Source of the DNA: a virus
Direction: 5' to 3' (one strand)
Virus record (IMG/VR): IMGVR_UViG_3300036770_005691
Span: 1-38,915 of that record
DNA: 38,915 nucleotides
Both the position numbers and the translations under genes were made by a program. Shown here one piece after another: positions 5,496-36,058 of this stretch. The notes beneath the pieces were generated by a model. The model was not told where the DNA came from. It made no database searches and worked only from the letters and a program-made list of their open reading frames with translations. Positions within the stretch are counted from its first letter, which is position 1; each line of letters begins with the position of its first letter.

Positions 5496-5524
5496 TGCAT
5501 AGCCAAAATGTCGGTCGATGTCAA
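5496..5524 (-). promoter_or_regulatory. Promoter of the operon 5481-3879
   Basis: TTGACA (5519-5524), a 17-bp spacer containing CCGACATTTTGGC, then TATGCA (5496-5501). The spacer carries the conserved phage promoter element. It starts 12 bp after the stop of the previous operon. Confidence 0.75.
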
Positions 5525-5535
5525 ATAAAAAGACA

Positions 5536-5766
5536 TCAGGCGATGATGCGGAAAACCTCGCAGGCTCGGTAGCCGCTCTCCATGGCAGCGGCGAGTTCAT
5601 CGACCTCGCACGCAATGTCCAGATTGAAGATGACACCATCGGAGGCTTGCACGCACACTCGGGTGCGTGCAGCGCCTTGCTCGCGGGGCATCTGGGTCAT
5701 GGAAATAACCCGGTCAGCCGGTGCGTAGACGACACCATCCAGCGTATCGAAACGGAGAAGGTGCAT
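5536..5766 (-). CDS. Unknown small protein, last gene of its operon
   Basis: This 76-aa protein starts at an ATG that overlaps the stop of the upstream membrane protein as TGATG. It has a beta-rich middle (RVCVQASDGVIFNLD region) that could be a small barrel, and an acidic helix near the C-terminus. No family recognised. A longer in-frame extension to 5970 exists but lies across the two upstream genes and has the wrong composition. Confidence 0.7.
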   Translation of the reverse strand: MHLLRFDTLDGVVYAPADRVISMTQMPREQGAARTRVCVQASDGVIFNLDIACEVDELAAAMESGYRACEVFRIIA

Positions 5767-5915
5767 CAGAAGGGCGACCACCCGAAGACGAACTTGCACA
5801 GGGCGAGAATGATCAGACCCCAGAAGCCGAGGATGCCGAGGATGTAGAGACAGCCCAGCCCGAAGACGCCACCGACGAAGGCACCAGTGCCCACGGTTTC
5901 GAGACGGCGGCTCAT
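5766..5915 (-). CDS. Small hydrophobic membrane protein
   Basis: The 49-aa frame has a polar start (SRRLETV) then about 30 hydrophobic, Gly-rich residues (12-40) that would span the membrane once as a long helix or hairpin. Its ATG overlaps the MazG stop as ATGA and its stop overlaps the next ATG as TGATG, strongly supporting translation. Function unknown; holin-like size, but nothing else points to lysis here. Confidence 0.6.
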   Translation of the reverse strand: MSRRLETVGTGAFVGGVFGLGCLYILGILGFWGLIILALCKFVFGWSPF

Positions 5916-6493
5916 GCGGCTTCTCCCTGCTTGTCGGCCCGGTCCTGTGCGGCCTGATCGCTGTAGCCATCCTTGTAGCGAGCGTTGGGCCCTTCGGCGA
6001 GCTTGTAGATGTTGCCGGCGATCGTCTGGTCGTAGGTGATGTTCGCCGCCATGCGGAGCGATTCCATTCCGGCTTCGATCTCGGACAGCGCCTTCACGAA
6101 AGCGCTCTTCTCGATCGCCTTCTGGTAGACGACGGCCTTCTTGACCAGATCGAGGAACTTGCCTCCGGCAATGGCGAGGACGACGGCCGAGACCATGACC
6201 GACGCGCCGGTTTTGACGAAGCCGGGCGAAGTGTCGGCGCGGCTGAGGCCGATGTTCTGGCGGGCCTGTTCGATATAGAACTCCATGTCACCGAGTTCTT
6301 CGATCATGTTTTCGCGGTCGAGCGGATTGCTCTTCGACGCGGCAGCAGCCGCTTCCAGAATCTCGCTCGTCTCACCCGCCACCCCGGTGGCTGCGTGCCA
6401 CAGGTCGGCCGTCACGGCGGTCAGTTCCTTGGCGATCGTTTCGCCGGGCTTGGCCAGCGCCTTGACCATAACGGGGTGGGTTACTTTTGACAT
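5912..6493 (-). CDS. MazG-type nucleotide pyrophosphohydrolase
   Basis: The 193-aa protein has GETSEILE (E41, E44) and EELGD (E65/E66, D69), the metal-binding pattern of MazG/dUTPase-like all-alpha NTP pyrophosphatases, plus a C-terminal half (FLDLVKKAVVY, RYKDGYSD) that looks like the second MazG lobe common in phage enzymes. It cleaves (d)NTPs to (d)NMP and pyrophosphate, or possibly alarmones. The start ATG has AAGGAG seven bases upstream. It lies in the same operon as dNMP kinase. Substrate cannot be read from sequence. Confidence 0.85.
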   Translation of the reverse strand: MSKVTHPVMVKALAKPGETIAKELTAVTADLWHAATGVAGETSEILEAAAAASKSNPLDRENMIEELGDMEFYIEQARQNIGLSRADTSPGFVKTGASVMVSAVVLAIAGGKFLDLVKKAVVYQKAIEKSAFVKALSEIEAGMESLRMAANITYDQTIAGNIYKLAEGPNARYKDGYSDQAAQDRADKQGEAA

Positions 6494-6502
6494 ATATTCT
6501 CC

Positions 6503-7003
6503 TTAGGCGGCCCGAGCGTCGTCGGGCGCAAATGCAAGGTTGGCGATGTGGCGGCCTGATCGCTCGGCGACGAACTCGTCAGCGAACTTCCAACAGGCCA
6601 GTTGGAACTCTGCGGAGGAGATAAGATTCCGCATATAAGTGCCGACGATCTGGGCGATCGACGGAAGATGCTCACCCTTGGGATCACCCCCGTGGTAGTT
6701 GATGTTGGCATCGAAGCGGCCGGTGTTCACATCGACATCTTCCAAAGTCAGGATCACGGTCGCCGGATCGAACGGTGCCGGAAAGCACCCCTTCTCATTC
6801 ATGGCTGCGATCAGTTCCCGGCCATAGTCAGCAACACCGGTCGTAAACTCCGGAGTGTTCACCAACGAATGCAGGTAATAGCCAACAAAATAGGCGGCAG
6901 TTGCGTGGCCTTGTCCGAGTTCTTCGCCCGTGGCGTTGAAATCCACCTTGAAGGTGTCCTCAGCAATGCTGAGGTCGGAAACGGTGATCATTACAGTGGC
7001 CAT
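6503..7003 (-). CDS. Unknown conserved-looking protein
   Basis: A 166-aa soluble protein between dNMP kinase and MazG, with AAGGAG upstream of its ATG. It has alternating acidic beta strands (VDFNATG, ILTLEDVDV) and helices with aromatic residues (YFVGYYLHSL; an equivalent YMRNLISSAEF motif recurs in the C-terminal half), suggesting an internal duplication of a helix pattern. No catalytic motif is visible. A role in nucleotide metabolism is only implied by its neighbours. Confidence 0.75.
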   Translation of the reverse strand: MATVMITVSDLSIAEDTFKVDFNATGEELGQGHATAAYFVGYYLHSLVNTPEFTTGVADYGRELIAAMNEKGCFPAPFDPATVILTLEDVDVNTGRFDANINYHGGDPKGEHLPSIAQIVGTYMRNLISSAEFQLACWKFADEFVAERSGRHIANLAFAPDDARAA

Positions 7004-7041
7004 GATTGCTCCTTACGCACGGCGCGTTTATCCCTCTCCGG

Positions 7042-7057
7042 AGGGACACCTGTCCCT
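7042..7057 (-). other. Stem-loop at dNMP kinase stop codon
   Basis: AGGGACA (7042-7048) pairs perfectly with TGTCCCT (7051-7057) around a 2-base loop, followed by further Gly-codon-like GC sequence but no U-run. It may be an mRNA stability or processing element rather than a terminator. Confidence 0.4.
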
Positions 7058-7646
7058 ACAGAGCTTTCAATGTTTCCAGAAAACGGACTCGGAACTCTTG
7101 GATGACCCGCTCTTCCTCGCCGAGGGCTGCGCGCTTGTTCGTCACCCGCTGGGTGACCGGCAGCTTGGCGATGAGGTCGTCAATCAAGGCTTCCGACTCA
7201 TGTTCTCCCTCGGTTGGCTTGATCCAGTCGGCGACGATGCCAATGACGACACCACCCGCTTCTTCGATCGCAGCCATTTCGTTCGGGAAACGAACATCGG
7301 TGATCACGGTTTGGCCGTGTCCCTCCGCGCGCCGGATCGCCGATGTGACCCAGAAGTCACTGTCGATCAGGTCCCGTCCCCATTCAGTGCCCAAGGTTTG
7401 CATCGCATACCGAGGGGTGCGACCGGCGAGATATTCGGTGGGGACTTCTTTCAGGTCCCCCTCGACCATCTGCTCGATCACGCCCGGTTCCAAACCTTGG
7501 TATACAAGGAGGTTCCGGATCATGTCTTTCAAGGCTCCGGCGAACTTGACGTTGCCATAACCTTGTGCCGTCAGCGTCACCGCTGCCGTGTCCTTACCAG
7601 AACCCTTACGACCGATGAGGCCGACCAGATGAGGAAGTGCGGTCAC
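7056..7646 (-). CDS. Deoxynucleoside monophosphate kinase
   Basis: This 196-aa enzyme phosphorylates dNMPs to dNDPs using ATP. It has a P-loop GRKGSGKDT (residues 12-20), a TPRYAMQTLGTEWGR-type segment (about 77-91) typical of phage dNMP kinases such as T4 gene 1, and VITDVRFPNE (about 114-123), which carries the second Mg/nucleotide site. The start is GTG with GGAG seven bases upstream. It is first in an operon with MazG, and would recycle nucleotides released by host DNA breakdown. Confidence 0.9.
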   Translation of the reverse strand: MTALPHLVGLIGRKGSGKDTAAVTLTAQGYGNVKFAGALKDMIRNLLVYQGLEPGVIEQMVEGDLKEVPTEYLAGRTPRYAMQTLGTEWGRDLIDSDFWVTSAIRRAEGHGQTVITDVRFPNEMAAIEEAGGVVIGIVADWIKPTEGEHESEALIDDLIAKLPVTQRVTNKRAALGEEERVIQEFRVRFLETLKAL

Positions 7647-7727
7647 TATGTTTCTCCAAATCCTACATGTCTACTGCCTCCGACGAGTTGAGGCATATTT
7701 GCGGTGAGTTGATGCAACTTTCGATTA

Positions 7728-7756
7728 TGTTAAGCGATCGTGTCGGTAGACGACAA
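7728..7756 (-). promoter_or_regulatory. Promoter of the dNMP kinase-MazG operon
   Basis: TTGTCG (7751-7756), a 17-bp spacer containing CCGACA and ending TCGC, then TTAACA (7728-7733), or TAACAT at 18 bp. It belongs to the same spacer-motif family as the other phage promoters but is more diverged. Confidence 0.55.
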
Positions 7757-7793
7757 AGCGCTTGACACAACGGTTTGCGACGATTCGTGCTTC

Positions 7794-9131
7794 CTATCCG
7801 ACGATCACCAGCCGCTCGGCGGCGCGGGTGATGGCCGTGTAGAGCCATTTGTCAGCGTCTTCGCGGAAGGCGCTCGACTCGTCGTGGACGATGACTTCAT
7901 CCCACTGGGAGCCCTGTGATTTGTGACAGGTGATGGCCCAACCGAAGTCCATTTGGGCATCGTTGATACGCGAGCGGAACGCCGCCTGCTTGCTCGCAGT
8001 CGAGTAGTTCTTTTCGCGTTTCAGATGTTCCTCGAACATCCCTTGATAGGCGTAGCAGGTGAATCGCTTGCCTTCTTCGTCCGCGATCTTCGCGAGGAAA
8101 CGGGCCATGCCTTCTTCATAGCTGCCACCAAGGTCTTCGGTTGCGAAGACCGGCGTGCCGTTCACCAGTTCGGGATGCTCTTTGTGGTTCTTGCACATGA
8201 TCAACGGCTCGCCCTTATGGGGCAGCGGATCGAGCAAGCCACCCTCGCGGCGCATCTTGCTGGTGAGCTTCCAGCGCGTTTTGTTCCGGCCGACGATCAC
8301 CTGACAATCGCGTTCGAGGTCAAGCGTGAACTCATCCTTCTTCGGCGGCACGATCAGCACGCCGTTGCCATAGTCACCGAAGTCGGCGCGGTCGCCCTTA
8401 CGGACGAGCGTGGCGAGATAGATGATGGGGTTGTCGGCCGCCTGACGATGCACTTCGGTGAGGAAGGCATCGGGCAGTTCGTCCGGCTTGAAGAAGCCCG
8501 GCTTATCACCCACGGGCGGAAGCTGGCCGGGATCACCCATGACCAGAATCGGAATCTCGAACTCTTCGAGATCGTTGGCGATTTCGAGACCAACCATCGA
8601 GCCTTCGTCGAGGATGATAAGCTGGATGTTCTCCTTGACCAACACCGAGTCCGAGTTCAGGGTGAACCGCAGATCGTTGAGGTCGTAGGCGCGATCGAGG
8701 TCGCGCTGGAGAATGTGGGCCTTCTTCTCGGCCTCTTGCAGGTCGGCTTTTAGGTCCCCAGTCGGTGGAGCCACGTCGCCATTCTTGAGCATGACGATGA
8801 AGACTTCCAGATCGCGAAGCTCGCGTTCCAGCACCTCGGCCTTTTGCGGCTTCGGCGTGTAGATCAGCTTGTGGATGGTCGTGGGGTAGACCTTGATGCC
8901 CTGAGCGCGGAGTTTGTTACCCATGACCTTGGCGGCCTTGCCGGTGGGAGCGGCGAAGGCGATCTGACTCGGCTCAAGACCGGTGGCGTCGAGAATGTCG
9001 GGAAGGATGGTGGACTTACCGGTCCCGGCGTATCCGCCGAGGGTGAACACCTGTTTCATAGCAGAGTCGTTCATGAACCACTGCTTGATCTTCCGAACGG
9101 CGTCGCCCTGTTGTGGGGAAAGGGAAAACAT
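7794..9131 (-). CDS. SF1 DNA helicase, Dda/RecD2-like
   Basis: The 445-aa ATP-driven helicase has the SF1B motif series: Walker A GYAGTGKST (33-41), motif Ia with APTGKAA, Walker B ILDEGSMV (DE at 175-176), motif III GDPGQLPPVG (199-208), motif V with HKSQGSQWDEV and motif VI YTAITRAAERL near the C-terminus. A charged helical insert (about 100-150) lies between motifs Ia and II. Size and layout fit T4 Dda, which helps initiate and remodel replication forks. The start ATG has a GAGG ribosome site. Translation ends about 40 bp before the next operon's promoter. Confidence 0.93.
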   Translation of the reverse strand: MFSLSPQQGDAVRKIKQWFMNDSAMKQVFTLGGYAGTGKSTILPDILDATGLEPSQIAFAAPTGKAAKVMGNKLRAQGIKVYPTTIHKLIYTPKPQKAEVLERELRDLEVFIVMLKNGDVAPPTGDLKADLQEAEKKAHILQRDLDRAYDLNDLRFTLNSDSVLVKENIQLIILDEGSMVGLEIANDLEEFEIPILVMGDPGQLPPVGDKPGFFKPDELPDAFLTEVHRQAADNPIIYLATLVRKGDRADFGDYGNGVLIVPPKKDEFTLDLERDCQVIVGRNKTRWKLTSKMRREGGLLDPLPHKGEPLIMCKNHKEHPELVNGTPVFATEDLGGSYEEGMARFLAKIADEEGKRFTCYAYQGMFEEHLKREKNYSTASKQAAFRSRINDAQMDFGWAITCHKSQGSQWDEVIVHDESSAFREDADKWLYTAITRAAERLVIVG

Positions 9132-9150
9132 GGAACCTCGCCGTGAAATG

Positions 9151-9164
9151 GGGACCTCTCCCCG
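9151..9164. other. Short GC stem-loop upstream of the helicase gene
   Basis: GGGGA and TCCCC flank a 4-base loop in the 135-bp gap between the 112-aa gene and the Dda-like helicase. No U-run follows on either strand. The rest of the gap shows no gene or promoter. Confidence 0.3.
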
Positions 9165-9605: not shown

Positions 9606-9625
9606 CAGGAATCCTTATCGGGTTG

Positions 9626-9679
9626 GCCGACCGGGCAAAGGAAACCCGGTCGGCACTCCCCATCGACAATTAATTGTCG
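9626..9679. repeat. Inverted repeat and 16-bp palindrome after the RGRR-repeat gene
   Basis: A perfect 10-bp inverted repeat (9626-9635 with 9645-9654, 9-base loop) is followed by the perfect palindrome CGACAATTAATTGTCG (9664-9679), which straddles the TAA stop of the upstream gene. There is no U-run, so it could be an mRNA-processing or stability structure, or a protein-binding site. Confidence 0.55.
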
Positions 9680-10746
9680 AAATTGCGGAGACGGCGGTTG
9701 GTGCCACGACCGGCCGACCGGCCACGCGGCGCGGGTGCCGCTTCGTCGTCACCTTCGTCATCACCGTCATCGGCGGCTGCGGCGCGGCGACCACGGGCCG
9801 GACGTGCCGGCTCACCTTCATCGTCGCCGTCGTCAGCCGGAGCAGCAGCGCGGCGACCACGGGCCGGACGCTCTTCCTGCTCTTCCTCGGCGGGAGCAGC
9901 ACGGCGACCACGGGGAGCCGGATCATCCTGCTCATCGCCATCGCCGTCGTCAGCCGGAGCAGCAGCGCGGCGACCACGGGCCGGACGCTCTTCCTGCTCT
10001 TCTTCGACCGGAGCAGCGGCACGGCGGCCACGACGCGGTTCGGGTTCCGGCTCGGGCTCCGGATCAGCACGACGACCGCCACGGGCCGGGGCCTCGTCCT
10101 CGCCACCGTCATCATCGTCACCGAGGTCACCGGCCAGACCGGCCAGTTCGGCTTCGGTCATCCAGCCGACGATCTTGAGCGTCGGCGAGAACTTCTTCTT
10201 GCCGTGCTTCTTGTTCTTCGGCGCATAGCTTTCCGCGCCGAGTTCGATGATCGGGAACTCGCCCGGATGCTGCGAGAACACCTTGCCATAGGCACCGGCG
10301 AGCTTGCGAATCTGGCGGACCTGACCACCGGTGGAGGTCTTCCACAGCAGCGCGGTGCCGACCGCTTCGTCCTGATCGTCGTCGCCGTAGCTTTCGAGGA
10401 CCAGCGACAGCTTGGCGGATTCGCGCCAGCCATCATCGTCATCATACGGACCGTAGTCGGTCAGTTGATGCTCGGCGGGCGGTTTGCCGTCGTGGATACC
10501 CGTATAGGTCTCCTCTTCGACGTTACCTTCGACCCAGCAGGTCCAGCCATAGGCCATGCTGTCCATGTCGCCGACGACGCGCGAGCCTTCCGGCAGGTCT
10601 TCGTCGTCCTGACCGAACGACCAACGACCATCGTTGCCGTTGAACTTGAGGTAAGTGCCGGTTTCGACACTCTGAGCCGCTTCGGCCCAAGGGTTTCCGG
10701 TGACCGCCACATCGCGACGGCCTTGGGTAACGAGATCGTTAGCCAT
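9670..10746 (-). CDS. Probable DNA-binding protein with acidic RGRR-repeat tail
   Basis: The 358-aa protein has two parts. Residues 1-205 are a folded, beta-rich domain with many Trp/Tyr/Gly residues, ending in a KKFSPTLKIVGW-like strand seen in phage proteins of unknown function. Residues 206-358 are low complexity, with six or so RGRR/RGRS cores followed by Ala-Pro and separated by blocks of Asp and Glu. The repeats resemble AT-hooks in an acidic linker, as in DNA- or RNA-binding scaffolds. It lies next to the Dda-like helicase. A single-strand DNA-binding or replication-scaffold role is inferred, not shown. The ATG has GGAG at good spacing. Confidence 0.8.
   Translation of the reverse strand: MANDLVTQGRRDVAVTGNPWAEAAQSVETGTYLKFNGNDGRWSFGQDDEDLPEGSRVVGDMDSMAYGWTCWVEGNVEEETYTGIHDGKPPAEHQLTDYGPYDDDDGWRESAKLSLVLESYGDDDQDEAVGTALLWKTSTGGQVRQIRKLAGAYGKVFSQHPGEFPIIELGAESYAPKNKKHGKKKFSPTLKIVGWMTEAELAGLAGDLGDDDDGGEDEAPARGGRRADPEPEPEPEPRRGRRAAAPVEEEQEERPARGRRAAAPADDGDGDEQDDPAPRGRRAAPAEEEQEERPARGRRAAAPADDGDDEGEPARPARGRRAAAADDGDDEGDDEAAPAPRGRSAGRGTNRRLRNFDN
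9720..10060. repeat. Imperfect tandem repeats encoding RGRRAAAP units
   Basis: A GC-rich block inside the 358-aa gene has repeated units built on GCGGCGACCACGGGCCGG-like cores (for example near 9787, 9855 and 9967). Two long stretches (about 9842-9885 and 9954-9997) are nearly identical, implying recent duplication or gene conversion. Confidence 0.7.
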
Positions 10747-10780
10747 GGTTGCTCCAGATTGTTGAGAGGCGGAGATACGA

Positions 10781-10805: not shown

Positions 10806-11096
10806 TTATTCGCCGGTCGGCAGCGATTTCTTGAGGCCAGCCAAAATCTTGGCGGCCTTGACCTTCTCGTCGATGGTGTCGGTGACGCTCTTCACGGCGT
10901 CCTCGGCTTCATCGAGAATGCGCTGGGCCTCGGCCTGCGCGTCGTTGCGGAGATCGACGATCTCCTGCTCGAACCCGGCGACCTCGGCGTCGTGCTTCGC
11001 GAGGAACTTGTCCAGTTCGGCATCGAGGCTGATGACAAAGGCGACGATCGAGTCGGAACTCCGGGCCACCCAGCGGAAGAAAAGGGATTTCAGCAT
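10806..11096 (-). CDS. Helical coiled-coil protein
   Basis: This 96-aa protein is almost entirely helical. A short aromatic N-terminus (FFRWVARSSDSIVAFVI) could sit at a membrane surface, and a long charged heptad-like segment (residues 25-85) follows. It is the first gene of its operon. The ribosome site is poor. It resembles no specific family; a structural or membrane-tethered adaptor is possible. Confidence 0.72.
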   Translation of the reverse strand: MLKSLFFRWVARSSDSIVAFVISLDAELDKFLAKHDAEVAGFEQEIVDLRNDAQAEAQRILDEAEDAVKSVTDTIDEKVKAAKILAGLKKSLPTGE

Positions 11097-11147
11097 GTCG
11101 GGATTGCTTTCTTTCAGGGGAACGGACCGCTTGGCCCGGTGACATTC

Positions 11148-11176
11148 TCGCTACACAAATGATGGTTAAATGTCAA
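11148..11176 (-). promoter_or_regulatory. Promoter of the operon 11096-7794, with tandem motif copies
   Basis: TTGACA (11171-11176), 17 bp, TAGCGA (11148-11153). Upstream are two direct copies of the family motif 22 bp apart: GACATTTTAATTTGACC, then GACATTTTCGCTTGACA. The second copy overlaps the -35. The promoter starts 24 bp after the stop of the preceding operon. Confidence 0.75.
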
Positions 11177-11199
11177 GCGAAAATGTCGGTCAGGTCAAA

Positions 11200-11556
11200 T
11201 TAAAATGTCGTTGTCAGGCCCTTTGGTTCAGTCGCCGGCTCCTGCTTGGTAAGCAGGCCTTGCCGTTCGGCTGCGACACCGATCATGAAGCCGGTCTCGA
11301 ACATGGAACAATCCTGCACCAGCCTCATCTTCTGCTCATCGCTCAGTTGGAAAGTGACCGAGTAGATCACAAGTGCATTGCTGATCGGCGGCTTGCCTTC
11401 CAGCGCTGCTTCCACCTTTTCCGAAACCATACGGAGACAGACGAGCGGAGCATCCTTGACGGGATCACCGGTGATGGTGATCTTTGGCTCCTCCTGCGGC
11501 GGTGTCGGTCCCGGCGCAGCGGTTGCGAGGAGAGCGGCGAAGAGAAGCTGGAGCAT
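11200..11556 (-). CDS. Exported small protein of unknown function
   Basis: The 118-aa protein begins with a signal-peptide-like hydrophobic run (MLQLLFAALLATAAPGP) with a plausible cleavage after TAA or SAP-like Ala residues around 14, so the mature protein would act in the periplasm or outer envelope. Two cysteines (about positions 40 and 82) could form a disulfide. A good AAGGAA ribosome site overlaps the upstream stop codon. It is the last gene of its operon. No family recognised; superinfection or envelope roles are speculation. Confidence 0.75.
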   Translation of the reverse strand: MLQLLFAALLATAAPGPTPPQEEPKITITGDPVKDAPLVCLRMVSEKVEAALEGKPPISNALVIYSVTFQLSDEQKMRLVQDCSMFETGFMIGVAAERQGLLTKQEPATEPKGLTTTF

Positions 11557-14327: not shown

Positions 14328-14567
14328 TTATCCTTTCTTGTCTTCGATCAGAAGCCACGCCCGACGCACGTCGATGCTGTCGAAACGGCGACGGGCTTCG
14401 GCCTTCTGAGCCTCGGAGGCGTGATAGGAGAGGCCGAGCGAGACTTGTTCGATCGCTTCACGCCCGAGTTGATTGGCGCTATCCTGCGAGGCGCTGACGG
14501 CGATCGGGACGGTCTCGCCGTTGGGGTTGTCGAGAACGACCACCCAGACAAGCTGCGGCACGCTCAC
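14328..14567 (-). CDS. Unknown small protein
   Basis: The 79-aa frame starts with GTG overlapping the exonuclease stop as GTGA. A beta strand (LVWVVVLDN) is followed by a small loop and a long helix rich in Ala/Glu/Arg. A longer in-frame extension reaches 14750 inside the exonuclease gene, but the GTG start fits the overlap rule of this genome. Confidence 0.7.
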   Translation of the reverse strand: MSVPQLVWVVVLDNPNGETVPIAVSASQDSANQLGREAIEQVSLGLSYHASEAQKAEARRRFDSIDVRRAWLLIEDKKG

Positions 14568-15229
14568 AGACCATATTCCTTCGGGAGCTTGCCGGTCTTC
14601 TTGAGTTCGTAGAACTGTTCGTCGAACGCGCCGCGATTGATGAGTTCGTGGAAGATGCGGCGGGTGGCGGTGATGTCCACGATCGCCGAGTGAGCGCCGA
14701 CCAATTCTTCGTTGAAGAAGAACATCATGGCTTCTTCGAGGCGCGGCCATTTGAAGTCGCGCCGGCCATCACCCTTCGGCAGCTTGCAGATCGGCGTCGC
14801 CGTCTTCATGGTGCAGAGGGTCGGGAGACCGTTCAGGATTTCCTTTGGCGGGGCGTTCGGTCGCAGGCGGGTATACTCCATACCCATGATCTTGGTGTCG
14901 AAGGCCGAATTGTGGCAGACAATCGCATCGGCCGCATCAGCGGCGATCATGAAGATTTCGAGCGCGTCGCGGATCGGGATGCCGCTGTCTTCGCACATCT
15001 CCATCGTGATGCCGGTCAGTTCGGTGGACTTCGCCGAGATGCCATTCCCCGAGCAGGGATGGATGCGCCAGTTGTCCGGCTGGATGAAGGTGTCGAGCGC
15101 GATCGCATCGACGCCGTTGATCTCAAGGATGAGACCAAGCTGGGTGATGTGCGGCTGCTGCTCGTGATGCGGCGGATATTTGTTGGTGGGAAGACCGGTG
15201 GTTTCCACGTCGAAGAAGAGAGTCCGCAT
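14564..15229 (-). CDS. DnaQ-like 3'-5' exonuclease
   Basis: The 221-aa DEDDh exonuclease has Exo I FFDVETTG (D7, E9), Exo II CHNSAFD (D111) and Exo III AHSAIVD (H180, D185). It probably works as a proofreading or DNA-trimming enzyme, although the phage polymerase already has its own exonuclease domain. The ATG at 15229 overlaps the upstream stop as TGATG; a GTG directly before it is less likely. It is second in its operon. Confidence 0.9.
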   Translation of the reverse strand: MRTLFFDVETTGLPTNKYPPHHEQQPHITQLGLILEINGVDAIALDTFIQPDNWRIHPCSGNGISAKSTELTGITMEMCEDSGIPIRDALEIFMIAADAADAIVCHNSAFDTKIMGMEYTRLRPNAPPKEILNGLPTLCTMKTATPICKLPKGDGRRDFKWPRLEEAMMFFFNEELVGAHSAIVDITATRRIFHELINRGAFDEQFYELKKTGKLPKEYGL

Positions 15230-15585
15230 CACCCGACATCCTGCGATTCGAGAAGACGCTTGGTAAACGACTCCGAGTTGAGGACCGAACCAGTGCGGTT
15301 CGCTCGCGCCACCTTCTCTTCCACGATGGCGTCCAGCTTGCGATCCATGTCGGCGTCACGGATCGCTTCATGGAAGGCGTTGCGGAGGACGGAGAAGGTG
15401 TATGCCCGGTGTGCAACGAGCGCGATCGGCGCGACGGCGATATACCACGGGATGGCGAAATAGCCGAGACCGTTCAGGGCGAACATCACGATCGACGCGA
15501 TGACAAGACCAGCGGCGAGCCAGATCGAACCGGCACGACTGTTGTCGTTATATTCGTAGGGAAGATCGAAGTCTTCGATGAGCAT
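15229..15585 (-). CDS. Inner-membrane protein with two helices
   Basis: The 118-aa protein has a short acidic N-terminus, two adjacent hydrophobic segments (about 22-40 and 45-60) and a charged cytoplasmic-like helical tail. It is the first gene of its operon and overlaps dnaQ. No family recognised; it may bring DNA-metabolism proteins to the membrane or affect the envelope. Confidence 0.75.
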   Translation of the reverse strand: MLIEDFDLPYEYNDNSRAGSIWLAAGLVIASIVMFALNGLGYFAIPWYIAVAPIALVAHRAYTFSVLRNAFHEAIRDADMDRKLDAIVEEKVARANRTGSVLNSESFTKRLLESQDVG

Positions 15586-15627: not shown

Positions 15628-15656
15628 CTGTTAACCAATTTGGTTCGCAATGTCAA
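15628..15656 (-). promoter_or_regulatory. Promoter of the operon 15585-11200
   Basis: TTGACA (15651-15656), 17 bp, TAACAG (15628-15633). The CCGACATTTTCGC element abuts the -35 upstream. It starts 25 bp after the last stop of the preceding operon. Confidence 0.8.
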
Positions 15657-15680
15657 GCGAAAATGTCGGTGACAGATAAT

Positions 15681-17305: not shown

Positions 17306-19531
17306 TTAGTGAGTCTCGTGCCATGCGTTGCCGATAGAGGCCGAAGCTTCCACCGGAAGGGCGAAGTCCAACTGACGCCCCGTTTCCATCGCCGCTTTGA
17401 TGCAGAGTTCGGCGACGCGTTCTTCCAGACCTTCGCGACAGGCGATCTGAACCTCGTCGTGAATCCATGCAAGAAAGCAGAAGTCACCATCCCACCCATA
17501 GGTCAGACCTTCTTCGGCGAGCATGTCTTCGAGGTTGATCAGCCACCAGTTCGCGATCGTCGCGCCCATGCCCTGCAAGTCGGTGTTGAGCGCCGCGTGC
17601 TTCGAGCGAACGAACAGACGCCGACCGTCGAGACCCACGAGGAACTTACGAGCCGCTTGCCGCTGCACGTCACGAATGACGCGGTTGAGAGCGGGCAGGT
17701 TTTTCAGGAAGCGAGCCTTGAGTTCCTTGCCGATCCTCGCCTGTTCGACAGGCGAGGACAGCGGACTCACGATCTTGCCGATTTTCTCGTCGCCCGCCCC
17801 GTAGAGGAAGGCGTAGATAAAGGTCTTCGCCGTGTCACGCATGTCGAGCCCGGCGAGGCGCTGGTTTTCCGAGTGGATGTCACCTTCGAGCAAGACCTGC
17901 CCGTAAGCGCCCCCGTCATACTTCGCCATTTCGTGGGCGAGACAGCGAAGTTCGATACCGGCCAAGTCGGACCCGACCAGCTTCCAGCCGTCCCAGACGG
18001 TGAAGAGCGAACGGCACTCATAGCCCCAGCCACCCTTGAGGCCGAGGATGATCACATCGACGACGGCGTTGCCTTCGTCATCGGTCTTGAAGGCGGACTC
18101 GGGCAGCAGGTGCCAGTCGTCGCAGCGCTGCCCCTTGACCATGACAAGGACCGGGCCGTTCTTCCAGCGAGCGTTCGGACGGATAATGCCGGTGGGGTTC
18201 GCCACCTGCAACAGGTCCTTGACCTTCGCCTTCTTCTTACGGACTGCCGGAACCTGAGCAAGGTTCGGGAAGGCGTGCGTCGCACGCGTCGTTACAGCAC
18301 CGCACGGATTCACATAGCCGTGGATGCAGCCGGTCTCTTCGTTATAGACCTTGAGCCACGCCTGCTTACCATCGGCCAACTGGCCCATGAGTTTGCGGAT
18401 CGCGAGAAGGTCGGCCAGCTTTTCAGCGACCGGGAAACGCTCGACGATGCGGCGCAGGATAACGTCGTTTGCCTTGACGTTGCCTTTTTCGGTGTAGTCC
18501 TCGTCCTCGGGAATCCACCCCAAGTCCTGCAAGCGATCGGTGATCTGCTTACGCGAAGTGGCCTTGAACTCCTGCCACTTGATCGGGGTGAACCACGCCC
18601 CCTCCTCGTAACGAGGATGGAGAGGGTCCTTCCACTTCGGACTGGCCTTCCTCTTCTGCTCGGGGTAGCCATGCCAGCGTCGGTCCTCCGGTTCATCATA
18701 CACGTAGAAGTCAGGGAACTCACCGCCTTTGACATTCCGTCCGATTGGTGCGGTGTCCATGCTCTTCGCAGGGATGAAGCGACCGGGGAACTCGATCGCC
18801 AGTTCACCTTCGAGGCGAACTTGTTCCTCGGTCAACTCACCGGCGAGGATCATCGCACGCGGTTTGTCGAACGGGAATCCGTTTTCTTGCTGGCGAGCCA
18901 TCAGGTCCGCCAAGCGATGTTGCACGTAGACCGCCTGTGGGGAGGCCTCGCGGCTGTCGATCATCTTCACGAGGAGGCTGGTGACCTCCACGTCGTTTTC
19001 GCAATAGTCTTCGAGTTCGGTGGTCCACGTCCCCCAGACCCACGCGCGCATCTCTTCGGAGTCTTTGACGTAGCCGCGCTCGACGCCGATCGCTTCCTTG
19101 ATCGCCTTGTAGTCGCCCTTGAACATACCGAGGCGTTGACCCCAGCTATCAAGCGTGTGCTTACCGATGTTCTTGCCTTCGAGCTTCCCGGCCTCGAACA
19201 GACGGAAGTCCTTATCTTTCTGATCTGGGAAGAGCAGACGGGCGAGAACGAGCGTGTCGCGGATGCGTGCTTCCAACACCCAGCCGAACAACAGTTCGAG
19301 CATCGGGATGTCGTATGCGACAATGTTGTGGCCCCAGATTTCCTCGGCGTCGTTCAGGAGCGCATAGGCCTTGTGGATCGTGTCTTCGCGCTTGTTGCGG
19401 CGGAAAACCCACTTCTGGCCGGTGTCGTAGTCTCGGACACACAAGCAGTGACAGACGGTCACCTGATCGAGGAGACCGTCCGTCTCGGCGTCAAAGACTA
19501 GCCGACGATATTTTTTGGGCTTGAGGCGCAA
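17306..19531 (-). CDS. T7-like family A DNA polymerase with 3'-5' exonuclease
   Basis: The 741-aa replicative polymerase has an N-terminal exonuclease (D14/E16, D74 in GHNIVAYD, Y176 and D180) and polymerase motifs A (SDLAGIELR, D522), B (RDTAKTFIYAFLYGAGDEKI, K569/Y573) and C (WIHDEVQI, H691/D692/E693). Motif B is almost the T7 sequence. About 70 residues (432-501), with a beta-like stretch, are inserted between an AQVPAVR segment and the WGYECRSLF segment, where T7 polymerase has only a few residues. The start is TTG behind a weak AGGG. It would need a host or phage processivity factor. Confidence 0.95.
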   Translation of the reverse strand: MRLKPKKYRRLVFDAETDGLLDQVTVCHCLCVRDYDTGQKWVFRRNKREDTIHKAYALLNDAEEIWGHNIVAYDIPMLELLFGWVLEARIRDTLVLARLLFPDQKDKDFRLFEAGKLEGKNIGKHTLDSWGQRLGMFKGDYKAIKEAIGVERGYVKDSEEMRAWVWGTWTTELEDYCENDVEVTSLLVKMIDSREASPQAVYVQHRLADLMARQQENGFPFDKPRAMILAGELTEEQVRLEGELAIEFPGRFIPAKSMDTAPIGRNVKGGEFPDFYVYDEPEDRRWHGYPEQKRKASPKWKDPLHPRYEEGAWFTPIKWQEFKATSRKQITDRLQDLGWIPEDEDYTEKGNVKANDVILRRIVERFPVAEKLADLLAIRKLMGQLADGKQAWLKVYNEETGCIHGYVNPCGAVTTRATHAFPNLAQVPAVRKKKAKVKDLLQVANPTGIIRPNARWKNGPVLVMVKGQRCDDWHLLPESAFKTDDEGNAVVDVIILGLKGGWGYECRSLFTVWDGWKLVGSDLAGIELRCLAHEMAKYDGGAYGQVLLEGDIHSENQRLAGLDMRDTAKTFIYAFLYGAGDEKIGKIVSPLSSPVEQARIGKELKARFLKNLPALNRVIRDVQRQAARKFLVGLDGRRLFVRSKHAALNTDLQGMGATIANWWLINLEDMLAEEGLTYGWDGDFCFLAWIHDEVQIACREGLEERVAELCIKAAMETGRQLDFALPVEASASIGNAWHETH

Positions 19532-19558: not shown

Positions 19559-19587
19559 TGTTAAGCAGAAATGTCGGTCACTGTCAA
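19559..19587 (-). promoter_or_regulatory. Promoter of the DNA polymerase operon
   Basis: TTGACA (19582-19587), a 17-bp spacer gtgaCCGACATTTCTGC, then TTAACA (19559-19564), or TAACAG at 18 bp. A further copy, TGACATTTTGC, abuts the -35. This is the clearest tandem arrangement. It begins 9 bp after the last stop of the preceding operon. Confidence 0.8.
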
Positions 19588-19595
19588 GCAAAATG

Positions 19596-19907
19596 TCACT
19601 TGCGCTTGGGGAAAGGCACCGGATTGGGTTGGCGCTGCATCAGCGCCGCCATCCGCTCGGCCGGCGTCATATCGCACTCCCTGCGGACACGCCCGATCGC
19701 CGGCCACGTATCGCTCTTGCCGTGATAGTCGAGAATGCGGACGCCTTCGGTCGGAACCTGTGCCGGCCGCCAGACCGTGCCACAGCCGAGGCATTTGTGT
19801 GACGTGTGTGGAGGGTTGTCCCAGCCGGGATTGGTCACCTCATCCACTTCATCGATATGCTGGAGATGACAGACGGGGCAGATGAGGATCATCGGGATAG
19901 GAGTCAT
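19596..19907 (-). CDS. Zinc-ribbon protein
   Basis: The 103-aa protein has an N-terminal CPVCHLQHID knuckle (C10, C13) and a CLGCGTVW knuckle (C39, C42) with nearby histidines, forming one zinc site, then a basic C-terminus. Small proteins with this CPVC..QHID..PH..H..C layout are frequent in phages and lack a known role. The ATG at 19907 overlaps the upstream stop as ATGA; an in-frame extension to 20027 is not supported. Confidence 0.8.
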   Translation of the reverse strand: MTPIPMILICPVCHLQHIDEVDEVTNPGWDNPPHTSHKCLGCGTVWRPAQVPTEGVRILDYHGKSDTWPAIGRVRRECDMTPAERMAALMQRQPNPVPFPKRK

Positions 19908-25217: not shown

Positions 25218-25516
25218 CACTCGCCCTCCCGCTGGTTGGCATATTCCAGCTTCTCTTCGGGCGGCAGTAGCGACGCCACGGCGGTCAGAACGCGGACGAG
25301 GACTTCTTCCTTCGCCACATAGCCATCGGCCTTGTCGAGAAGCCGACCGATCAGCGCGTCGAGTTGCGAGCGGGATGCTGTCTCTTGACGGGCGAAGATG
25401 ATGGCGCTTTTGATCGCGGCTTCATCATCCGGAGTCAGTTCACCATAACTGGCCTTGTAACTGATCTCCACACCTTCGGGGAGAAACGGTGGGCGAAGTA
25501 TCAGGCTCATCGTCAC
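25217..25516 (-). CDS. Unknown small helical protein
   Basis: A 99-aa mainly helical protein, starting with GTG overlapping the HD-protein stop (GTGA) or with the ATG two codons later. Mixed hydrophobic and charged helices hint at a dimerising regulatory protein; no family recognised. Confidence 0.7.
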   Translation of the reverse strand: MTMSLILRPPFLPEGVEISYKASYGELTPDDEAAIKSAIIFARQETASRSQLDALIGRLLDKADGYVAKEEVLVRVLTAVASLLPPEEKLEYANQREGE

Positions 25517-26319
25517 AGGCGGTATCCTCGGTTGACATATTCCAACGGTTCGTATTCACCGTCATTGGCTTGGATCATTTCCCAGCGACGGAGGAACTTG
25601 TCCTTCGCCTCCTTGGCGTCCCAGACATAGAAGTCGGGAACGACATCGTGGATCGTGATGCCCGGATGCTGATGCTCGTTCGTGTAAGGAACGACAGGCG
25701 GCCCCATCATTTCGTCGCGTTCGAGGAAGACCATCATGTCGTCCACCATCTTGACGATCTGCGAGATGCCGAGGTTGACCGGGACATCGAGATCGACCGC
25801 GATCTGGTGCATCAGGGCGTTCTCGTTCTCCTTGTAGCCCTCGACCGAATATTTCACCGGCCGCACGAGATCAGCGAAGCCGTAGCCCTCGGGCGCATCG
25901 TGGAGCAGCGCCAGCGCGGCCGGCGACGGCATCTTGTCCCAGTCCCAACCGGGCAGGAGCTTGCGTCGGTTCAGGACGCAAATGTCCGCGACGTGGACCG
26001 AGTGCTGGGCGACGGAGTAGCGCAGCGGATCACCGTCTTCGTTGCTGCCGATGAGAGCGGTCTGCCCACCCCACCTCGGCATTACGGCCAACGCATGAGC
26101 GATCGTCTCGATGTCGATGTCATTGCCGGGATGGTTTGGCTGCATCGGCCAGAAGTATCGACCCTTATAGATTTGGATCGCGCCGCCGAGGTCGGACACA
26201 GCGGCGATGGCGCGGTTGCGATTGATCGCGGAACGCCATTGGTCTTCCGTCCGGCAGACTGCCGGCTTGGCCAAGGTGGGGTGGAGCATGTCGGGAATTT
26301 CCTTGCGCTCAAAGAGCAT
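25513..26319 (-). CDS. HD-domain hydrolase, 5'-nucleotidase-like
   Basis: The 268-aa protein has the HD signature YSVAQHSVHVAD (H106) and LLHDAPEGY (H140, D141, E144), with VDDMM further on for the final Asp, as in YfbR-like metal-dependent deoxynucleoside monophosphatases. It would dephosphorylate dNMPs and balance pools with the dCMP deaminase and dNMP kinase. It is the first gene after a strong promoter; the ATG at 26319 or at 26289 (AAGGAA upstream) could start it. Confidence 0.82.
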   Translation of the reverse strand: MLFERKEIPDMLHPTLAKPAVCRTEDQWRSAINRNRAIAAVSDLGGAIQIYKGRYFWPMQPNHPGNDIDIETIAHALAVMPRWGGQTALIGSNEDGDPLRYSVAQHSVHVADICVLNRRKLLPGWDWDKMPSPAALALLHDAPEGYGFADLVRPVKYSVEGYKENENALMHQIAVDLDVPVNLGISQIVKMVDDMMVFLERDEMMGPPVVPYTNEHQHPGITIHDVVPDFYVWDAKEAKDKFLRRWEMIQANDGEYEPLEYVNRGYRL

Positions 26320-26348: not shown

Positions 26349-26377
26349 TGAGTAGCGAAAATGTCAGTCATTGTCAA
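26349..26377 (-). promoter_or_regulatory. Promoter of the operon 26319-19596
   Basis: TTGACA (26372-26377), a 17-bp spacer atgactGACATTTTCGC, then TACTCA (26349-26354). A second GACATTTTCGC abuts the -35, so two copies lie 22-23 bp apart. It begins 14 bp after the last stop of the rII operon. Confidence 0.8.
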
Positions 26378-26390
26378 GCGAAAATGTCTG

Positions 26391-26552
26391 TCAGCCGAAC
26401 GACCCGGCTTTCAGATCACAGAAGGCGCATTGCAAGGCGTGACGCATCCCGTCCTCGAACTCTCCCATCACATGCTTGAAATGATGGTAGAAACCGTAAA
26501 AGAAGGCACCGCAGCCGGCGAAGAGCAGGAGGGCGATTTGGATGGCTTGCAT
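26391..26552 (-). CDS. Small membrane protein
   Basis: The 53-aa protein has an N-terminal transmembrane helix (residues 3-22, AIQIALLLFAGCGAFFYGFY), then a His-rich, acidic tail with two cysteines. It is the last gene of the rII operon; its ATG overlaps the upstream stop (TGATG). An in-frame extension to 26879 has the wrong composition. Function unknown. Confidence 0.65.
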   Translation of the reverse strand: MQAIQIALLLFAGCGAFFYGFYHHFKHVMGEFEDGMRHALQCAFCDLKAGSFG

Positions 26553-33705: not shown

Positions 33706-33728
33706 CGGTATCTCCTTATTTGTCCGGC

Positions 33729-33757
33729 GTCCTAATTTAATTCACTTGCAATGTCAA
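33729..33757 (-). promoter_or_regulatory. Promoter of the rIIA-rIIB operon
   Basis: TTGACA (33752-33757), 17 bp, TAGGAC (33729-33734); the preceding AATTTACGC is a diverged copy of the family motif. It overlaps the rightward promoter at 33746-33774. Confidence 0.7.
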
Positions 33758-33774
33758 GCGTAAATTGCTATAGT
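33746..33774 (+). promoter_or_regulatory. Promoter of the rightward small-gene operon
   Basis: TTGCAA (33746-33751), 17 bp, TATAGT (33769-33774). Its -35 and spacer overlap the leftward rIIA promoter, so the two are face-to-back and may compete. Confidence 0.65.
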
Positions 33775-33800
33775 GCCTGCTCAGATTATCAGTGGGCCGA

Positions 33801-34037
33801 ATGAAGACCGTAACCGGAACAGATCGAAAGATTGCATCCCCGTCGCAAGATTGGGATGATAACGACTGCCTGTGTCAGGGGCCTATCCCGGACGATCAGG
33901 CGCTCTTGTTCCAACAGCATCTCTATAGCGAGAAGCTGAAAAAGCGGCGGTGGCGCAATGTGCTGAAATGCCACATGGATTGCCCCATCCACGGGGTGAC
34001 GATCACAACGGAGGACCGACCATGCCGCGAGGGCTGA
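33801..34037 (+). CDS. Unknown small protein with four cysteines
   Basis: The 78-aa protein has DCLCQG near the N-terminus and CHMDCPIHG plus a late Cys, possibly forming a zinc site. The start is ATG about 20 bases after the presumed transcription start, without a clear ribosome site; a GTG at 33792 is possible. Function unknown. Confidence 0.6.
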   Translation: MKTVTGTDRKIASPSQDWDDNDCLCQGPIPDDQALLFQQHLYSEKLKKRRWRNVLKCHMDCPIHGVTITTEDRPCREG

Positions 34038-34213
34038 GCCCCAACGTCTGTAATAAGATCGAGAAGGAAGGCGTCATCCCCGACGAATGCCGTTTCCTGA
34101 ATGAGACGCTGCATTTCTGCCCCTCGTGGGGCGACATGCTGATCGACGATTCCGATCCGGAATATGAACACTGCCGCTGCAAAGGAGATAAGCGTGGCGC
34201 AAACGCTGGTTGA
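34022..34213 (+). CDS. Small cysteine-rich protein
   Basis: A 63-aa protein with five cysteines, including a CRC near the end, consistent with zinc binding. GGAGG eight bases upstream supports the ATG at 34022. It overlaps its neighbours at both ends. Function unknown. Confidence 0.65.
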   Translation: MPRGLSPNVCNKIEKEGVIPDECRFLNETLHFCPSWGDMLIDDSDPEYEHCRCKGDKRGANAG

Positions 34214-34565
34214 GATTACCGAAGCCCTCATTCAGGATACCCACCCCGGTCCCGATGGTTGTTGCAACGCGGATCGCATCGCCTTCATCATGGATGTCCT
34301 CGGCCACGAGGAGATCGATCTGAACCAGAACTACAACTACGCGCTCGTCCAGAAGAGCAAAGACCCGAACGTGGTGGAGGCGTCCAAGCATATCGCCATG
34401 CTACAGCTTGATTATCTCAAGCGGGCGTATGACCACGATCATGTGGACGACGAGACCTACAAGCTGCGATCGGCCGGCCTCTTCCTCGATGTCCGCAAGA
34501 TGGACTGGCACTACGACCACCTGATCAAGGGAATGCCGACCCCGCCCTTCATCTTCATTCACTGA
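34194..34565 (+). CDS. Unknown protein
   Basis: The 123-aa protein starts with GTG after AAGGAG at ideal spacing, just inside the previous gene. It is mostly helical with many Asp/His/Tyr residues in the second half (KRAYDHDHVDDETYKL). There is no catalytic motif that I can recognise. It is the last gene of the short rightward operon. Confidence 0.72.
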   Translation: MAQTLVEITEALIQDTHPGPDGCCNADRIAFIMDVLGHEEIDLNQNYNYALVQKSKDPNVVEASKHIAMLQLDYLKRAYDHDHVDDETYKLRSAGLFLDVRKMDWHYDHLIKGMPTPPFIFIH

Positions 34566-34591
34566 CTTCCACTTCCTGTTTCCATTCCTTG

Positions 34592-34620
34592 TTGACTTCG
34601 GTTGCGAATCGGTCTAATCG
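34592..34620 (+). promoter_or_regulatory. Promoter of the tyrosine recombinase gene
   Basis: TTGACT (34592-34597), 17 bp containing TTGCGAATC, TAATCG (34615-34620), located 30 bp before the ATG. Confidence 0.6.
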
Positions 34621-34649
34621 ACCGGCACCGAAACAACAAGGAGTGAGAC

Positions 34650-35279
34650 ATGAAGCGTATCAAGCGCGCCCTTACATTCACCGACGACCAGTTCGGAAAG
34701 CTCTGGCGTCTGGTGGCGCAGGAATCCACGCTCCCGGAGCGGGATCACCTCATTCTTGCCCTCTCGTTCAAGGCCGGCCTGCGCGTCGGTGAAATCCAGA
34801 AGATCGACCTCAAGGCGATGCTGGATGTCGAGGGCAACCCCGCTGACAAGATCAACGTCTTCTCGAACGTCGCGAAGAAACAGCGCGCTCGGGAAATCCC
34901 CATGCACAATCTGGTTCGTAAGGCGCTCGTTGCATTCATGCGGGCGTATCCGAACGCGACCTTTGTCGCCATCTCTTCGCAGCCCTTCCAGCATATCGTG
35001 AAGAAGGGCGGCCGGGTCCCCCTCGACGCGTCCTTCAAACGCATGTCGCTTTCGGCCATTACCGTTCATTACTGGCTGCTGGTCAACAAGGCCGGTTTCG
35101 TCGGCGCAAGCAGCCACTCCGGCCGGCGCACGTTCGGCACCAAAATGGCCCGACAAGCCAACCTGCATCACTGCTCGATTCGCGACGTGCAAATCTTGAT
35201 GGGACACGCTCGTCTGGAAACGACCGAGGAGTATATCGAACTTTCCGAAGACGCTTCGAGCCTGATCAACGCGATCTGA
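34650..35279 (+). CDS. Minimal tyrosine recombinase
   Basis: The 209-aa protein retains the catalytic set R45 (GLRVGEI), H156-x2-R159 (HSGR), H186 (GHARLETTEEY) and Y195, so strand cleavage and religation should be possible. It lacks the N-terminal core-binding (SAM-like) and arm-binding domains of classical integrases, being essentially a catalytic domain. A possible catalytic lysine is K77 or nearby. AAGGAG precedes the ATG. It may resolve phage concatemers or dimers rather than integrate; no att-like repeats were found. Confidence 0.88.
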   Translation: MKRIKRALTFTDDQFGKLWRLVAQESTLPERDHLILALSFKAGLRVGEIQKIDLKAMLDVEGNPADKINVFSNVAKKQRAREIPMHNLVRKALVAFMRAYPNATFVAISSQPFQHIVKKGGRVPLDASFKRMSLSAITVHYWLLVNKAGFVGASSHSGRRTFGTKMARQANLHHCSIRDVQILMGHARLETTEEYIELSEDASSLINAI

Positions 35280-35291
35280 CGAAAATAGTTC

Positions 35292-35320
35292 TTGACCGAA
35301 TCAGTGGAGCCGGTTAAGAG
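35292..35320 (+). promoter_or_regulatory. Promoter of the H1-like gene
   Basis: TTGACC (35292-35297), 17 bp, TAAGAG (35315-35320), 35 bp before the ATG at 35355. Confidence 0.55.
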
Positions 35321-35354
35321 CGAATCATCTGCAACCCCAAGGAGGAGAACACAC

Positions 35355-35858
35355 ATGGATAAGACTGCAACGACTGCCAAGAAGATGCTGACCAAGCCGA
35401 AGGGCGCTGCTGCCCCGAAGAAGACTGCAACGCGCAAGGCCGGCACCGCCGCGCCGAACGGCAAGGGCCAGACCCAGAGCGACGCCGGCCTCGGCAAACA
35501 GGGCACGACCGCGACGACCCCGCCTGTTGCGGCTCCGGCCGTGATCATGGGCGGCACCAAGAAGGTCGTGATCGAAACGATGGCGGTTCCGCCCAAGCCG
35601 TATGCGCGCCCGGCCAAGCCCGAGGAATATCCGTTCGGCGAACTCGCGCCGGCCACGAAGGACAAGACCGGCGAGATCGTCGGCCCCAGCTTCTTCATCC
35701 CCGAGGGCGACAAGCCCGAGAAGCATCTGGCGAATGCCCGCAAGCGCCACAAGTGCCTGTTCTGGTCGCGCCGCGCGACCGAGAAGCCGAACGGCAAGGG
35801 CGCGCCGGTCCCCGGCGTCCGCATCTGGCGCGGCAGCGAAGACGCCCGGCCGAAATAA
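35355..35858 (+). CDS. Basic Lys/Ala/Thr-rich protein, histone H1-like N-terminus
   Basis: The 167-aa protein has a highly basic low-complexity N-terminal third (Lys, Ala, Thr and Pro repeats, like histone H1 tails) and a more ordered C-terminal part with KCLFWSRRATEKPNGKG. A nonspecific DNA-binding or condensation role is plausible. AAGGAGGAG precedes the ATG. Alternatives include a ribosome- or RNA-binding protein. No membrane segments. Confidence 0.75.
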   Translation: MDKTATTAKKMLTKPKGAAAPKKTATRKAGTAAPNGKGQTQSDAGLGKQGTTATTPPVAAPAVIMGGTKKVVIETMAVPPKPYARPAKPEEYPFGELAPATKDKTGEIVGPSFFIPEGDKPEKHLANARKRHKCLFWSRRATEKPNGKGAPVPGVRIWRGSEDARPK

Positions 35859-35861
35859 GGC

Positions 35862-35890
35862 TTGCGAATCACTTTACACGATCGTATAGC
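35862..35890 (+). promoter_or_regulatory. Promoter for possible small RNA
   Basis: TTGCGA (35862-35867), 17 bp, TATAGC (35885-35890), lying directly after the H1-like gene stop. Confidence 0.6.
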
Positions 35891-35896
35891 CTCCGT

Positions 35897-36026
35897 GTCC
35901 TAGCAAGACCTGCATGGATGGGTGCCTGCTCCAAGACAATCCCCCGTTGCGGGGCAGGCATCGTAAACCTGTTAGTTTGATCAGGGCTGAATCAGAGAAG
36001 GGTCGTCACATTGTGGCGGCCCTTTT
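35897..36026 (+). ncRNA. Candidate small structured RNA
   Basis: No convincing ORF lies between the promoter at 35862-35890 and the terminator at 36000-36026. The stretch folds with TGCCTG (35923-35928) pairing CAGGCA (35955-35960), enclosing a CCCCG/CGGGG hairpin (35942-35954). Its 5' end is estimated from the -10 box. Either a regulatory RNA or an untranslated trailer. Confidence 0.4.
36000..36026 (+). terminator. Intrinsic terminator
   Basis: A 10-bp stem (36000-36009 with 36013-36022, including two G-T pairs) with a 3-base ATT loop is followed by TTTT and a further U-rich stretch. The next promoter's -35 starts 4 bases later. Confidence 0.8.
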
Positions 36027-36029
36027 CTG

Positions 36030-36058
36030 TTGACAGTGACCGACATTTCCGCCATACT
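36030..36058 (+). promoter_or_regulatory. Rightward promoter of the motif family
   Basis: TTGACA (36030-36035), spacer gtgaCCGACATTTCCGC of 17 bp, CATACT (36053-36058). It has the same conserved spacer as the leftward promoters. Confidence 0.75.

Follow-up and report, generated by a model that had tools for sequence, protein, structure and literature searches.

In phage P1, the repressor C1 acts at about 22 short, dispersed, asymmetric operators to control replication and, indirectly, late genes (PMC8546580). Cluster A mycobacteriophages such as L5 and Bxb1 carry as many as some 30 asymmetric sites in a genome, most of them facing the same way relative to transcription, and the motifs of these L5-type sites diverge together with the repressor (PMC6550527, PMC9283540). 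The present study concerns a 14-bp element that recurs at promoters of a 38,915-bp viral fragment from IMG/VR (record IMGVR_UViG_3300036770_005691; hereafter, the window, meaning the whole stretch analyzed) and of its relatives. Our comparisons suggest that this element probably represents the operators, specific to each clade, of a global repressor of the CI type, encoded by the phage beside nrdB, that would act by blocking RNA polymerase.

The window covers the nrd-polA-rapA-rII-integrase-tRNA region of a phage related to the Erythrobacter phages XM05 and vB_EliS-L02 (L02) and, more distantly, to the Sphingobium phage Lacusarx and the Citromicrobium phage RXM; a tyrosine recombinase gene is present. 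In the literature searched on these phages, no operators are described. The Lacusarx authors found no genetic switch, and their lysogeny test was negative (PMC5648845); a repressor and an integrase are noted in the account of RXM. Ten Cbk-like/Lacusarx-like phages, from a group of large and presumably strictly lytic phages of sphingomonads, were compared, namely these four relatives and six large contigs (G001-G006) reached via relatives of the helix-turn-helix (HTH) protein encoded beside nrdB, with gene calls from our own frame-competition model.

Results

A preliminary description of the window had placed the element at the head of nearly every operon and proposed a position-matrix scan. 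With up to two mismatches, the plain 11-mer occurs 20 times in the window, slightly above the 14 expected by chance, and because this count is so close to chance a trained matrix was used in its place: 14 bp long, derived from XM05 and two metagenome relatives, with the window and the promoter hexamers excluded. It yields six window matches above 15 bits, five of them in intergenic DNA, which makes up 13% of the window; 200 dinucleotide shuffles of the window gave 0.39 such matches on average and at most 3. The recurrence is thus real, and the scan recovers the window sites far above the shuffles; eight of the nine best matches are sites already described, the exception (13264) lying in a gene, without a -35. 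"Nearly every operon" was too strong, since the window nrdA and helicase promoters have no good copy. Four clade matrices, also built without the hexamers and applied at a threshold of 11 bits, give 93, 38, 93, and 98 intergenic matches, and at that threshold the element is 11 to 39 times denser between genes than within them, so that the equal frequency inside genes which had been named as a refutation is not what is found.

The element stands in a fixed register to the promoter. In each of the four clades, TTGACA occurs most often at two distances from the element, exactly +14 and exactly -9. A set of 140 promoters over the ten phages, selected under stricter rules that include a -35 match of at least 5/6, comprises 88 with the element upstream, 38 with it in the spacer, and 14 with both. 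In the direction of transcription, the 14-bp element either ends exactly at the -35 (ACCGACATTTTCGC-TTGACA; in the window at 11176, 15656, and 26377 and, more weakly, 210, all on the minus strand) or lies inside the 17-bp spacer and ends exactly at the -10 (TTGACA-nnn-ACCGACATTTTNGC-(-10); 5524, 19587, and 26377 on the minus strand and 36030 on the plus strand). Because the putative operator ends exactly at the -35 or -10 of an ordinary sigma70 promoter, a repressor bound there would cover or abut that hexamer and keep host RNA polymerase off. Binding in the spacer should necessarily exclude the polymerase, and binding against the -35 probably would as well; we infer both that repression is the main sign of control and that the protein binds as a dimer. 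With 10 to 20 such promoters per full-length phage heading replication, nucleotide-metabolism, virion, and packaging operons, the whole would constitute one regulon switch. The genes downstream of the window promoters belong to nucleotide metabolism and replication, and in XM05 the portal, scaffold, tail, and ligase promoters also bear the element.

In the GACA phages, most sites lie at promoters: of 92 sites of at least 12 bits, 63 abut a hexamer, and a further 5 are no more than 70 bp from such a promoter. In the two asymmetric clades, 84 of 95 and 33 of 42 sites are oriented with transcription. A stoperator role for the isolated sites was considered and rejected: in L02 and G005 most are either palindromes of a second promoter class (class B, below) or terminal-repeat promoters that the matrix, being rich in A/T, picks up, and among the rest are several spacer sites whose -35 is weak, TTGCTT before nrdA being an example.

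The two layouts differ in their -10 boxes, with a mean of 3.18 matches of 6 at spacer-only promoters versus 2.56 at upstream-only promoters (p = 0.001). The better boxes at spacer-only promoters fit strong promoters held by a repressor and leave room for activation from -41. It is therefore possible, if clearly the less probable reading, that the protein is a dual regulator like lambda CI, repressing from the spacer and activating promoters with a weak -10 from about -41 through sigma region 4. The 11-bp core of the upstream site runs from about -46 to about -36, and its center, -41, is the position of a class II activator; lambda CI at OR2 lies at -42. The weaker -10 boxes of upstream-only promoters and the exact register, which suits a protein-protein contact, point the same way, but the -35 hexamers are near consensus, as is seldom the case in activator-dependent promoters, and 14 promoters carry both sites.

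The -35 and -10 are constant among the phages and the letters of the element vary. Four types are found: ACCGACATTyTnrC, GCAATTTTTGC, GTTATTTTaAC, and GTCAGTTT. Phage by phage, the element reads ACCGACATTyTGGC in XM05, G001, and G002, ACCGACATTyTnAC in G003, AGnGCAATTTTTGC in L02 and G005, AnTGTTATTTTaAC in Lacusarx, G004, and G006, and GTCAGTTTnGC in RXM. At the tail-tube promoters of the full-length phages, only the upstream element switches type; the -35, TACCAT, and a large part of the spacer are preserved. A dyad is clear in the GCAA clade, moderate in the GTTA clade, and poor in the GACA clades, and for this last reason a perfect dyad was rejected as a general feature.

These type switches bear on the reading that the element is an A/T-rich UP-like sequence, spread by recent promoter copying and served by no dedicated regulator. 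Its ATTTT core at about -42 does occupy the position of a proximal UP subsite, and at the repressor promoter the element is partly a T-run. The same element is found in the spacer, however, where UP elements do not act; conservation extends to its flanking G and C and to the bases specific to each clade; and its type switches track the repressor helix. This reading is accordingly the most improbable of those weighed here.

The recognition helix in question belongs to the HTH_3 repressor whose gene adjoins nrdB in XM05, L02, Lacusarx, and RXM. The helix RGTI(V/N)AYE pairs with GAC/GCC-type elements, RQS(I/V)RNYES with the GCAA element, RATIVQYE with the GTTA element, and RASMVHYE with the GTCA element, a one-to-one pairing of four types over 10 phages. 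Taking seven lineages with random labels, the chance of a perfect pairing is about 1 in 420, a value that is too optimistic insofar as the lineages are related. Overall genome similarity predicts the element less well. The window RapA protein is 80-81% identical to that of L02/G005 and 70-73% to that of XM05/G002/G003, and RapA and the A1-like protein together put L02/G005 closest (76-81%, versus 70-74% for the XM05/G003 side); nevertheless, the window element is of the XM05/G003 type. PolA of G004 is 77-79% identical to its counterparts in the window, XM05, G003, and L02 alike and 66% to that of Lacusarx, and despite this distance both element and helix of G004 are of the Lacusarx type. Because the window and G004 decouple the element from sequence identity in this way, element type appears to follow the helix and not genome similarity. 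The repressor of the window phage should accordingly carry an RGTI-type helix of the form RGTIxAYE, which is a prediction only, since the window holds just the first 49 codons of the gene.

The covariation of the element with a CI-like repressor helix makes it most likely that the sites are operators of one master switch. An operator for a phage regulator, one of two functions that the preliminary description had entertained, thus gains in plausibility from sequence comparison: the element is separate from the sigma70 hexamers, switches type, and co-varies with the helix. Since the covariation is a correlation over few lineages, the true reader could in principle be some other phage or host DNA-binding protein co-inherited with the repressor in each clade. 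We regard this as unlikely. The phages share no other HTH_3 protein, and 8 of the 10 relatives have none above the Pfam cut-off besides the nrdB-linked one; a host factor is unlikely because two phages of the genus Erythrobacter, XM05 and L02, differ in the element. G002 alone has, close to its repressor gene, two additional small HTH_3 genes (G002:137878-138517, L035), possibly Cro-like or competing immunity genes.

The repressor can be aligned over its whole length in the ten phages, and its copies in the four annotated relatives all match PF01381 above the cut-off. An AlphaFold2 model has a predicted local distance difference test score (pLDDT) of 73, with a disordered N-terminal tail and a C-terminal domain at about 85-90. 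The modeled HTH matches P22 c2 (Z 13) and 434 Cro; the modeled C-terminal domain matches LexA (Z 12.2) and the 186 CI C-domain (Z 11.9) over 109-116 residues, and Foldseek relates the model to a lambda-186 hybrid (E 3e-8). The protein is thus modeled as an XRE helix-turn-helix joined to a C-terminal domain like that of phage 186 CI and LexA. As to the Ser-Lys self-cleavage dyad of cleavable CI/LexA-type repressors, Pfam finds no Peptidase_S24 match in the repressor, and no GxSM motif is seen by eye in the alignment; 186 CI lacks self-cleavage. A prophage search for repressor relatives in 84,980 species genomes of bacteria returned none, which agrees with a nonintegrating life style but is no proof of it. 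In the window, only the start of the repressor gene remains (3..149, minus strand), with its ATG at 149 after GGAGGT, and the contig end cuts it within the basic tail, before the HTH. A search for an intact repressor of the window phage, via nrdB relatives and operator-pattern scans of viral contigs, found no contig in which a window-type site occurs together with a new repressor; many of the contigs that the scans returned with a single site are probably chance matches.

The second function that had been suggested, that of giving specificity to a modified polymerase, is not favored. A reader of this kind would be a phage sigma factor, a mimic of the RNA polymerase alpha C-terminal domain (alpha-CTD), or a modified RNA polymerase. 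Lacusarx does annotate a sigA with a Sigma70_r4 match above the cut-off, and L02 annotates an alpha-CTD protein. Sigma70_r4 nonetheless has no match in XM05, L02, G001-G003, or the window fragment, though the same promoters are used there, and Sigma70_r2 has none in any of the 11 records, although the promoters occur in every full relative. No Pfam match supports the alpha-CTD annotation in L02, and alpha-CTD does not bind where the spacer copy sits. On the Pfam results, sigma factor and mimic alike were rejected, and this class of reader is quite improbable. The protein annotated in L02 belongs to a family of about 200 residues (window 3879-4478, minus strand; L010:41542-42150) with CFR.E and YGTGLALPRFSV motifs resembling a class II aminoacyl-tRNA synthetase core.

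Promoters of the window

Every window promoter discussed here falls in an intergenic gap. Six are firm, namely those at 5524, 11176, 15656, 19587, and 26377 on the minus strand and 36030 on the plus strand, and a seventh, at 210 on the minus strand, is weaker; these sites of the preliminary description stand, and three others listed there fall by score. The promoter at 5496..5524 (minus strand), TTGACA-17-TATGCA with the spacer operator ACCGACATTTTGGC at 5502-5515 (22.7 bits), heads an operon of small genes starting at 5305-5481 and has orthologous spacer-type promoters in XM05 (28255), G001, and G002. At 11141..11209 (minus strand), TTGACA(11176)-17-TAGCGA has ACCGACATTTTCGC directly upstream at 11177-11190 (21.8 bits) and heads 10806-11096 and a nucleotidyltransferase gene at 9670-10746 (phrog_9528). 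A partial copy occupies 11199-11209, 22 bp farther upstream, and GACATTCTCGC, an inverted element, lies just past the -10 (11141-11151). The promoters at XM05 22064 and G003 88637 share this layout, the inverted element included, which is a possible third operator or loop partner. The promoter at 15628..15670 (minus strand), TTGACA(15656)-17-TAACAG with the same upstream operator at 15657-15670 (21.8 bits), heads the operon of 15229-15585, the polymerase exonuclease gene 14564-15229 (phrog_192), and onward.

The polA gene (17306-19531, minus strand, phrog_17) is headed by the promoter at 19559..19600, TTGACA(19587)-17-TTAACA, with the spacer operator ACCGACATTTCTGC at 19565-19578 (14.7 bits) and, upstream, a second copy, GACATTTTGC, the two being 22 bp apart. 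At 26349..26391 (minus strand), TTGACA(26377)-17-TACTCA has operators both upstream (26378-26391, 13.8 bits) and in the spacer (26355-26368, 18.1 bits), 23 bp apart; it heads the deoxynucleoside monophosphate (dNMP) phosphatase gene 25513-26319 (phrog_318) and the operon reaching to the A1-like DNA transfer gene, and XM05 promoter 9743, before the same phosphatase gene, likewise bears both copies. Paired copies 22-23 bp apart had been described at 11176, 19587, and 26377; the pairing is complete only at 26377, the second copy being partial at 11176 and 1 bp shorter at 19587. On the plus strand, 36030..36058 (TTGACA-17-CATACT, spacer operator ACCGACATTTCCGC at 36039-36052, 15.4 bits) heads 36083-36538.

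The repressor gene itself has the promoter TTGACA(210) at 182..224 (minus strand), with the weak element ACCGTTATTTTTGC at 211-224. This site, first placed at 205, reaches 14.8 bits, but the element doubles as the T-run after a hairpin and so may partly be the terminator's; a comparable TATTTT element precedes the repressor gene in other phages. The dNMP kinase gene 7056-7646 (phrog_139) is headed by a degenerate member at 7728..7756 (minus strand), TTGTCG-17-TTAACA, whose spacer contains ACCGACACGATCGC. At 2.6 bits this site, listed as 7751, was dropped as a firm member, although its orthologue, the dNMP-kinase promoter of XM05, carries a good element (TCCGCCATTTTCAC-TATACG). Two further listed sites, 37869 (3.1 bits) and 33752 (-0.9 bits), were also dropped. 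The latter is better read as two divergent overlapping promoters, TTGCAA-17-TATAGT on the plus strand and TTGACA-17-TAGGAC on the minus strand; this arrangement (33715-33775), between rIIA (minus strand) and the integrase-side genes (plus strand), is alike in L02, G001, G002, and G005.

Other intergenic signals

The class B promoters, TTGAC-(about 5)-GGAnnAwTyrTCC-TA, have a near-palindromic spacer, are nearly identical in most of the phages, and are confined to early-region genes (L011/L012, L02 86-117 kb; L009 in XM05; L029-L037 in G002; L048-L056 in G004); the window has none. They serve as an internal control because, unlike the element-bearing class A promoters, they show no type switch between GACA and GTTA phages. 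At the tail-tube promoter (L008:17288-, L010:11369+), most full-length phages, whatever their operator type, conserve the spacer TTAACCATTTTCGT-TACCATT, which is possibly CtrA-related. CtrA sites (PMC9437464) were rejected as an identity for the element, as TTAACC-like stretches occur in some spacers and none in the element. Between genes, GANTC, the CcrM methylation site, reaches up to about twice its expected frequency in XM05, L02, G001, and G002 and is depleted in genes; the window does not show this intergenic excess.

Discussion

Several observations weigh against reading the element as the operators, different in each clade, of a polymerase-blocking CI-type repressor. The strength of the -35 is not independent evidence, because the promoter set was picked on it. 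In the window's own clade the element is largely asymmetric, contrary to what would be expected of an ordinary CI dimer, and the exact register at both hexamers exceeds what a simple steric block needs. The element at the repressor-gene promoter is poorer and clade-independent and may be only a terminator T-run. Of the roughly seven lineages behind the covariation some may share ancestry, leaving few independent switches. Finally, Lacusarx gave no lysogens (PMC5648845), and a global repressor has no obvious use in such a phage. A more far-reaching proposal, which we put forward only tentatively and hold to be rather doubtful, is that the protein is a CI-type master regulator of replication and virion genes in large, apparently virulent Cbk-like phages, that it sits in fixed register against either hexamer, that it represses at spacer sites and activates at -41, that operator specificity has changed wholesale several times over tens of sites, and that phages of the same host thereby form "immunity" types without integration.

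A genome-wide operator set with a likely reader would make the transcription program of these phages predictable from sequence, and it raises the question of why virulent phages keep a CI-type brake. About ten phages, in each of which tens of operators would have been rewritten to follow a changed helix, also provide a natural test series for a protein-DNA recognition code.

The proposed repressor would resemble 186 CI and the lambda, P22, and 434 repressors in the modeled fold of both domains and in operators that overlap promoter hexamers. Those phages, however, have one or two operator clusters in the immunity region, whereas here the sites are at many promoters over 100-176 kb and no lysogens are known. 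L5 and Bxb1 also have many asymmetric sites oriented with transcription and a motif that changes with the repressor, but most L5 sites lie outside promoters and stop elongation, whereas most sites in the asymmetric clades studied here abut a promoter hexamer; moreover, L5 and Bxb1 are temperate and have a monomeric, two-domain DNA-binding repressor, in contrast to the 186-CI/LexA-like C-terminal domain modeled here. P1 is likewise temperate, and operators fixed at both hexamers are not described for it (PMC8546580), but it shares with the arrangement predicted here a single phage repressor and short operators scattered over the genome. By analogy, the P1 C1 and L5-type repressors would be the nearest systems in logic.

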